Below are positions 6,293 to 7,479 of a stretch of 64,000 bases of DNA, one piece after another. A program made the translations under genes and the position numbers. Under the pieces are notes generated by a model. It was not told the origin of the DNA. It did not search any database and worked only from the letters and a program-made list of their open reading frames with translations. Source of the DNA: Priestia megaterium (lineage in GTDB: Bacteria > Bacillota > Bacilli > Bacillales > Bacillaceae_H); NCBI RefSeq assembly GCF_023824195.1, contig NZ_CP085442.1, positions 3,882,001 through 3,946,000 of the forward strand, read 5' to 3'. Each line of letters starts with the position of its first letter. Position 1 is the first letter of the stretch.

Positions 6293-6451
6293 TTATCTCG
6301 CGGGTTCAAAAGTTTTACAGCCAGGTTCTTCCGTTTCAGAAACATGGTGACTACTTTCAGGACTCACAACGTAAATGGACTCTGCACTGCATTTATTTCC
6401 AGATTTCCAATACATGCACTCATTCACTTCACATAATACACCTTGGGCCAC
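6293..6451 (-). CDS. DUF1540 domain small protein (52 aa)
   Basis: A short cysteine-containing protein starting at GTG 6451 behind an excellent SD (AAAGGAGGGAT, 4-5 nt gap). The pattern VLCEVNECMYWKSGNKCSAE, followed by IYVVSPES and a late Cys (GCKTF), matches DUF1540, whose four conserved cysteines and C-x-Y-W-x-x-G-x-x-C core suggest a small metal-binding or disulfide unit. Function in spore formers is not established. Monocistronic with its own terminator. Confidence 0.8.
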   Translation of the reverse strand: MAQGVLCEVNECMYWKSGNKCSAESIYVVSPESSHHVSETEEPGCKTFEPAR

Positions 6452-6520
6452 TGTTATCCCTCCTTTGCTTGTCTTATCTATTTACTACCCGAAATATAAC
6501 GATTCTAACATTTTCACGCA

Positions 6521-6552
6521 AAAAAACCGCTTGTTTATCAAGCGGATCTTTT
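6521..6552 (-). terminator. bidirectional intrinsic terminator
   Basis: Perfect stem CCGCTTG/CAAGCGG (6527-6533, 6539-6545), 5-nt loop. Minus-strand reading ends in six U after the stem; it lies just beyond the stop of the S-box gene. Confidence 0.85.
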
Positions 6553-6890
6553 TATTGCGTGTGTTCAACATACTGTTTTTTAGCTAAATATAACTCACGG
6601 CTCAGCGTGATCCGCCGTTCTCTCAAGTGCCTTAATTTAGCCTGAAATTGTTCGTTAGTTGGCTCTTCTTGAATCAAGCGATACGTAAAAGAAATATCTT
6701 CATTTAACTGTTTAAAATCTTCCCATATCTCTTGAACTAGGGCGGATTGTTTTTCTTCAAATGAACGATTTTGCTGCGTTTTTAGCGCGGCTAAGATTTC
6801 CTGCTGCCACGTTTCGTCTTTTATTTCTTTTGCTAATAAGTATAGATCTAAATAATCATCAATGCATAAAGCCGTTTGTATATTGTTCAA
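6552..6890 (-). CDS. orphan helical protein controlled by a SAM riboswitch
   Basis: A 112-aa acidic, Glu/Gln/Leu-rich protein predicted all-helical, with no signal peptide, membrane segment or motif that I recognise. After the initiator it contains no methionine and one cysteine. The start is chosen as TTG 6890 because AAGGTGAT (6894-6901) is well placed for it; in-frame GTG 6899 and ATG 6896 sit inside that SD. The gene lies directly downstream of a complete S-box leader and a strong promoter. S-box genes normally serve methionine, cysteine or SAM synthesis and transport; this one resembles none of them. Confidence 0.75.
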   Translation of the reverse strand: MNNIQTALCIDDYLDLYLLAKEIKDETWQQEILAALKTQQNRSFEEKQSALVQEIWEDFKQLNEDISFTYRLIQEEPTNEQFQAKLRHLRERRITLSRELYLAKKQYVEHTQ

Positions 6891-6898
6891 TGTCATCA

Positions 6899-7059
6899 CC
6901 TTTTCTATACGAAATGTTTCTTCCTAAGAAGAGGGTTTCATCATAGAAAAAGATTCCTCTCCTTATCTGTCAGAGCTAGGCTATGCTGGAATTAGCACCA
7001 TTCAATAATTGTGGTTGCTGAGGCTTCAAAGGGCCAGTCCCTCCACCTCTCTAGATAAG
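6899..7059 (-). promoter_or_regulatory. SAM-I (S-box) riboswitch with a predicted translational expression platform
   Basis: Minus-strand RNA contains the S-box core: P1 5' strand CTTATCT (7053-7059), AGAGAGGTGGAGGGACTGG, GCCTCAGCAACC, GGTGCTAATTCCAGC and P1 3' strand AGATAAG (6962-6968). Downstream no U-tailed terminator is seen. Instead two exclusive helices can form: AAGGAGAGG (6956-6964) with CCTCTTCTT (6926-6934), which competes with P1; and CTTTTTCTAT (6943-6952) with ATAGAAAAGG (6899-6908), which masks the SD. SAM binding should stabilise P1 and the SD-masking helix, turning translation off. Aptamer identity is near certain; the switching model is inference. Confidence 0.93.
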
Positions 7060-7088
7060 AATATTTCGTTTTTAAATTATTTCTGACT

Positions 7089-7117
7089 ATTCTAATATGT
7101 TTTATAGGTTATGTCAA
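7089..7117 (-). promoter_or_regulatory. sigma-A promoter of the S-box gene
   Basis: On the minus strand TTGACA (7112-7117) and TAGAAT (7089-7094) are spaced by exactly 17 bp, about 30 nt upstream of the riboswitch aptamer. Confidence 0.85.
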
Positions 7118-7182: not shown

Positions 7183-7479
7183 ATGAAACGATATATGTTA
7201 TCTGCTTTTTTGGGAAGCTTGCTGCTGCTTCTCAGCATTGCCTTTTCATCTACTTTCCATATTGCAATTGTCAAAACAACCGGAAGCATTGGAGGGATTA
7301 TTTTAGCAGCGGCGGCTTTGATTATGAACGCGCTTGAAGATCCCCCCTCCTCCGATAATACAGGTGGAGGAGCCGTTGAAGTACTAGATAAAGGCGCCGT
7401 TTGGGCTACTTATTTACTTTTACTTTCATTACCAAACCTCATCGCATGTATAACATCTTATGTTTTATGGACTCGCTGA
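7183..7479 (+). CDS. small membrane protein (possibly DUF5316-like)
   Basis: A 98-aa protein with two or three hydrophobic helices (about residues 4-26, 30-48 and 73-95) separated by a Pro/Ser/Gly-rich loop. It has a start ATG preceded by AGGATGGTGAG. Order and spacing recall DUF5316 small membrane proteins, but the match is from memory and weak. It is divergent from the S-box gene. Confidence 0.6.
   Translation: MKRYMLSAFLGSLLLLLSIAFSSTFHIAIVKTTGSIGGIILAAAALIMNALEDPPSSDNTGGGAVEVLDKGAVWATYLLLLSLPNLIACITSYVLWTR

Follow-up and report, generated by a model that had tools for sequence, protein, structure and literature searches.

A SAM riboswitch, probably acting on translation, upstream of the gene for a small and nearly methionine-free helical protein in Priestia megaterium

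The transcription unit and its product

The window, that is, the whole 64-kb stretch of Priestia megaterium DNA considered here, carries on its minus strand, between positions 7117 and 6527, a compact one-gene unit comprising a promoter-like element, an S-box, a gene and a terminator, with a linker of 69 nt between the aptamer and the gene. The features are as follows.

7089..7117, minus strand: promoter-like element TTGACA-17-TAGAAT, matching the consensus at 11 of 12 positions
6960..7061, minus strand: complete S-box (SAM-I) aptamer (RF00162, 93 bits)
6956..6964, minus strand: 5' arm of the predicted antisequester helix, AAGGAGAGG, sharing nucleotides with the 3' strand of P1 and forming 9/9 pairs with 6934-6926
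6926..6934, minus strand: 3' arm of the predicted antisequester helix, CCTCTTCTT, within the sequester hairpin
6899..6952, minus strand: predicted Shine-Dalgarno-sequestering hairpin (minimum free energy −16.6 kcal/mol; without a U-run, not a terminator)
6895..6904, minus strand: Shine-Dalgarno sequence AAAAGGTGAT, assigned from the sequence
6552..6890, minus strand: gene of a 112-aa helical protein with the TTG start at 6890 and no internal methionine (dN/dS, AlphaFold2)
6527..6545, minus strand: intrinsic terminator 3' of the gene (terminator scan)

The aptamer (7061-6960, minus strand) is the sole match at the Rfam gathering level in the window, and its score of 93 bits over model positions 1-108 (E = 5.4e-21) exceeds the gathering score of 44.4. 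In the other 13 S-boxes of the genome, 33 aptamer columns are invariant; all of them are intact here as well, and only 3 of the 102 aptamer sites vary among five Priestia genomes. Thus, the full S-box claimed in the sequence-only reading is borne out, as are the promoter, present in its place with 11 of 12 consensus matches, and the single gene, one 112-codon frame ahead of the terminator at 6545-6527. Promoter-like matches are not enriched in the window as such (two, versus a shuffle mean of 2.6), hence the weight of this one comes from its place and not from match frequency.

A spermidine-sensing variant of SAM-I was considered and set aside, as all 33 invariant core columns are intact. These variants, as PMC10853860 describes them, resemble the window S-box in having a SAM-I-like fold and in occurring in Gram-positive bacteria, but are altered at SAM-contact positions, whereas the invariant columns of the window aptamer are unaltered. 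In the open-licence literature, we found no paper on an S-box SAM riboswitch in Bacillus megaterium.

In-frame GTG and ATG codons just upstream of the TTG allow for an alternative reading of 115 aa. We took the TTG at 6890 as the start because the upstream ATG is not conserved, being AGG in genome G003, and because the Shine-Dalgarno sequence AAAAGGTGAT fits the TTG. The gene is present in five of ten genomes of the genus Priestia; one of the orthologous loci belongs to P. aryabhattai B8W22. The dN/dS ratios in the ten pairwise comparisons of the five genomes are 0.06-0.26, and the sites that vary among the orthologues number 13, 6 and 26 of 112 at the first, second and third codon positions, respectively (the "up" row of this comparison was left out, as an indel in L018 misaligns it). 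The gene is thus real and under purifying selection.

The protein reached no Pfam or NCBIfam family at the cut-off; the earlier reading had seen in it no likeness to the enzymes and transporters that handle methionine, cysteine or SAM. AlphaFold2 predicts three helices, chiefly one long hairpin (pLDDT 89.9), and fold searches with the 112-aa protein returned only generic helical hairpins and coiled coils and no known fold family. The N-terminal part has a weak likeness to DUF7667 (PF24704), with E = 0.03 for the window protein and 0.002 for a homologue (L044), but the scores of 14.9 and 18.7 bits, respectively, against the cut-off of 27 place both outside this family by the curated rule. A protein search listed 21 relatives, all at least 88% identical except one that matches 59% of the query; the named matches are mostly from Priestia megaterium or aryabhattai. 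The protein contains no methionine after the TTG initiator and one cysteine, exactly as had been noticed from the sequence.

Two further genes adjoin the unit. On the same strand, 3' of the terminator, the gene at window positions 6304-6462 encodes a cysteine-containing 52-aa protein with the DUF1540 domain (PF07561), while a divergent gene at 7183-7479 (plus strand) encodes a 98-aa membrane-type protein that is present in the same five of the ten Priestia genomes.

Translational control versus termination

The genome (G000) carries 14 S-boxes. Each of the 13 others is followed by a terminator hairpin with a U-run, whereas the same script found no terminator between the aptamer and the gene in any of the five Priestia leaders of the window type, and a general terminator scan of the window agrees. 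The sequence-only reading had not remarked on this lack. By best match, the targets of the other S-boxes include MtnK, MtnW, MetK, a PAPS reductase, a homocysteine methyltransferase/MTHFR protein, a MetE-like methyltransferase, a Bmp-type lipoprotein and a protein of the Na+/H+ antiporter family; MetN, MetE and a cystathionine-type lyase are also best matches, but below the curated cut-off, with MetE cut by the locus end. The transcriptional S-boxes of this genome, such as those of metK, mtnK, mtnW and cysH-type genes, share with the window S-box the aptamer, the core bases and the competition for the P1 strand; they differ in having a terminator, which the window leader lacks, and the window product is not recognised as an enzyme or transporter of sulfur metabolism.

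Three other S-boxes of the genome deserve a separate mention. One (L014 1501-1910; G000 C1:1185929-1186030, plus strand) has a terminator and lies in front of the gene for an 80-aa protein that matches no Pfam family. Another terminator-bearing S-box (L007; C1:939266-939365, plus strand) has no same-strand open reading frame of at least 50 aa starting within 560 nt, and may be an orphan S-box or an unannotated small RNA. In the metE leader (L004; C1:3528572-3528682, minus strand), the S-box is followed by an element that by eye looks like a cobalamin riboswitch.

We compared the folding of eight leaders from five lineages. In all of them the predicted minimum free energy structure is a sequester hairpin pairing the Shine-Dalgarno sequence, and the 3' strand of P1 can form 9/9 pairs with a stretch inside this hairpin, the 3' arm having been picked in each leader for the best pairing (in G056 it lies in another register). 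Since there is no terminator and the leader can alternate between the P1-strand helix and the Shine-Dalgarno hairpin, translational control is probable: we favour, with fair confidence, a SAM-OFF S-box riboswitch acting on translation, and not on termination, of a one-gene transcript. When SAM is bound, P1 would form, CCTCTTCTT would lose its P1-strand partner, and the Shine-Dalgarno sequence would be paired in a long hairpin. When SAM falls, the 3' strand of P1 would pair with CCTCTTCTT, trapping the 5' arm of the sequester hairpin, so that the hairpin would be broken and the Shine-Dalgarno sequence released. The product, a small alpha-helical protein nearly free of methionine and cysteine, could then be made when methionine is short.

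The quantitative signals are uneven among the leaders, and a clear release of the Shine-Dalgarno sequence is seen in some of the models only. The mean accessibility of the 12-nt Shine-Dalgarno stretch rises from the sequester to the antisequester state in 8/8 leaders, but for the 4-nt core it drops in G056 and G170 and is nearly flat in G003; when 60 coding nucleotides are included, the accessibility in the five Priestia leaders is nearly equal between the states (for example, 0.32 vs. 0.37 in the window, with a drop in G003). In G056, G054 and G212 none of 500 shuffles folds as low as the sequester hairpin; in the other five leaders, Priestia ones among them, 6 to 36 of 500 do so (18 in the window). 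Swapped arms form 8.6 of 9 pairs at −8.5 kcal/mol versus −9.9 kcal/mol for the native ones; as they pair nearly as well, covariation is modest. Paired G-C to A-T changes are seen in the sequester stem of G003 and in the antisequester helix of G212.

Of the four distant leaders, three still have a terminator-like inner hairpin at the place where the U-run is gone in Priestia; the design may be a mixed one, with Priestia at its purely translational extreme. The same observation would fit a leader whose terminator arm has eroded, leaving an aptamer that no longer controls the gene, or controls it only via Rho-dependent termination of poorly translated RNA. We regard such decay as rather improbable, since the aptamer varies far less than the third codon positions, as expected for a switch in use, and the antisequester pairing is still complete. 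A translational SAM-I riboswitch is described for the met operon of Xanthomonas campestris in a paper of 2020, which states that previously characterised SAM-I switches had relied on Rho-independent terminators (PMC7270179). According to that source, the Xanthomonas switch shares with the window leader a SAM-I aptamer, the lack of a terminator and a masked Shine-Dalgarno sequence (the masking being predicted here), but it has another platform sequence, phylum and target, and it also senses initiator tRNA. Yet another arrangement is seen in family f15 (G337, G356, G393), where the second S-box ends with AAGAA and runs at once into GGGG, with the ATG 9-11 nt further on; the P1 helix would therefore lie next to the Shine-Dalgarno sequence or overlap it.

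Distribution of the S-box and methionine content

The family, with the motif DYLDLY...W..EI, occurs in Bacilli. Among 397 genomes from the order, a profile of close relatives detects it in 21, and in 12 of these the S-box is directly upstream of the gene (G000, G001, G003, G006, G009, G054, G056, G170, G212, G337, G356, G393). In two more it lies farther upstream (G108, G211), and in the remaining seven no S-box was found upstream. The 12 genomes fall in six families (f1, f15, f17, f30, f40, f42); all five Priestia orthologues have the S-box, and the other seven genomes represent five other families. By chance, an S-box would be found within 200 nt of a given gene in approximately two cases per 10,000. 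Of 398 genomes from the wider class, 131 contain a match to the family profile, in some cases limited to the N-terminal part. Among 28 scanned loci of this class the S-box was found in three: farther upstream in L075 and L084, and abutting the gene in L087 (G501), which we scored as direct despite the weak aptamer (48.2 bits) that overlaps the start. Mapping the presence of a direct S-box onto the protein tree requires six changes, only two of them forced by well-supported branches.

The S-box, as judged from sequence, is thus a feature of a part of the family and controls it in several lineages, and the assignment of the window gene as a new S-box target, a member of the S-box regulon, is well supported. 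The sequence-only reading would have counted homologues lacking an upstream S-box against it, and such homologues are part of the picture: the S-box is kept in all five Priestia orthologues and, these included, lies directly upstream in 12 of the 21 order genomes, but for 32 of the 48 full-length homologue loci the approximately 1.5 kb scanned upstream contains none. It had also suggested that the gene may belong to a sulfur-sparing regulon; membership in the S-box regulon stands, while sulfur sparing is a plausible suggestion.

Given the methionine share of 2.54% over the 66 open reading frames of the window, the probability of no methionine in 111 residues is 0.058. None of the 15 window frames of 90-160 aa, scored from the first start codon, is methionine-free, the window gene itself being counted among them with one methionine from its GTG reading. 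The methionine-free trait alone is thus near chance, while the S-box is not. Among 48 full-length homologue cores, those with a direct S-box are methionine-free in 10 of 13 cases (five of the 13 being near-identical Priestia sequences), versus 5 of 32 without one; the three cores with a more distant S-box have one or two methionines. The association is significant by the Fisher (P = 1.8e-4) and Mann-Whitney (P = 1.8e-5) tests, both ignoring relatedness, but a test on the tree leaves two to four independent contrasts, too few for significance, and single Priestia proteins (L017, P0008, P0013, P0019) have internal methionines. Lower methionine with a direct S-box is thus a trend, not proof.

The methionine-rich neighbour and the possible role

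In 20 of 49 family loci, a methionine-rich open reading frame, defined by at least nine methionines in 40 residues, is situated on the 3' side of the homologue, convergent to it in 16 cases and on the same strand in four. These loci comprise six with a direct S-box (one of them, L043, truncated) and 14 from f50 without an S-box. Methionine makes up 34-48% of nineteen of these frames and 29% of the truncated one; the encoded protein mostly has 43-48% methionine and a conserved CDEMM motif. A profile of this protein matches seven of 397 genomes of the order, five of which are among the 21 with a homologue (hypergeometric P = 5e-6). Three versions of the protein had no Pfam or NCBIfam match. Its named relatives, from the Bacillus cereus group, Peribacillus, Aneurinibacillus and Priestia, are hypothetical proteins. 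Nothing clear was seen by eye as to the promoter type of the gene.

No such frame is present in the 64-kb window or in 43.5 kb around the 14 S-boxes of the genome, and no methionine-rich gene was found in the ten Priestia genomes, either with the profile or with the plasmid protein as a query (the latter search having no positive control). The gene does occur in nine PLSDB records of Priestia plasmids; in the four inspected, it adjoins genes of a 53-aa hypothetical protein and of a DUF2292/YezD protein, and an Rfam scan of these four stretches yielded no match, the S-box included. The Bacillus mycoides version of the protein had no match among plasmids.

Several other homologues are found in S-box-headed or sulfur-type gene strings. 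In G543 the order is S-box, DUF2292, FMN reductase, homologue; in G408, a terminator-bearing S-box, an FbpA-family protein and a truncated homologue; in G145 an FbpA-like gene, DUF2292, ferredoxin, an FAD oxidoreductase and a luciferase-like monooxygenase lie near the homologue; in G212 a family-3 solute-binding ABC transporter and OsmC are upstream of the S-box. DUF2292, FMN reductase and luciferase-like enzymes are putative markers of sulfur limitation.

In the f50 paralogues (L080-L082, L086, L088, L089, L091, L092, L097, L098), a dyad close to ATACCGAGTATAATACTTGGTAT lies over the promoter, and we take it to resemble CymR sites. With up to three mismatches, the dyad ATACC...GGTAT has one site per genome, at the f50 gene, in 5/5 genomes. 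Control of these paralogues by a CymR/Rrf2-type factor was considered and rejected, as a single site per genome provides no tie to a sulfur regulon. In L065, L067 and L068 (G356, G393 and G337, respectively), S-boxes flank the gene of a single-domain LysR HTH protein and the homologue, downstream of fliW-csrA-like flagellar genes; the locus holds three S-boxes in both G337 and G393, and two in G356.

The switch implies that the protein works under methionine or sulfur limitation. We infer that its role is that of a partner-binding effector of the limitation response; in the relatives, the partner is likely the neighbouring methionine-rich protein, which is the best lead to the molecular job. 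If instead the protein were a general small regulator (of motility, c-di-GMP or stress) that has come under sulfur control, its scarcity of methionine would be incidental. This is less likely, but a serious contender: the f15 relatives adjoin genes that by eye are fliW-csrA-type, EAL-like and PilZ-like, as well as single-domain LysR HTH genes, and most members of the class have no S-box, while S-box control recurs in six families and proteins behind a direct S-box tend to contain less methionine. It is very improbable that the prevailing convergent orientation reflects antisense control, with S-box-driven read-through from the gene repressing the methionine-rich one. The gaps in the S-box loci of G054 and G170 are indeed short (67 and 41 nt), but both contain a strong hairpin, of −17.4 and −25.6 kcal/mol, which looks like a terminator serving the two genes, on which ground we rejected antisense control as the main reading; moreover, the same-strand loci and Priestia, which has no methionine-rich neighbour, do not fit it.

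Returning to the partner-binding effector, we tentatively suggest, as an unlikely but specific possibility, an undescribed methionine-buffering module. The methionine-rich protein would store methionine in times of plenty, and the SAM-switched, near-methionine-free helical protein, made at low SAM, would act either on this store, for instance by serving as an adaptor in its degradation, or on other clients. In Priestia, the chromosomes would keep the SAM-controlled half, and some plasmids the methionine-rich one. In the open-licence literature, we found no paper on bacterial methionine storage by such a protein pairing.

Genes preceded by an S-box are nearly always those of methionine, cysteine or SAM enzymes or transporters. 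A conserved S-box target unlike such enzymes, apparently controlled at the level of translation, as opposed to the 13 S-boxes with terminators in the same genome, points to a wider use of SAM switches in Bacilli, and, with a near-methionine-free protein recurrently paired with a methionine-rich partner, methionine storage in bacteria can be put to a direct test.
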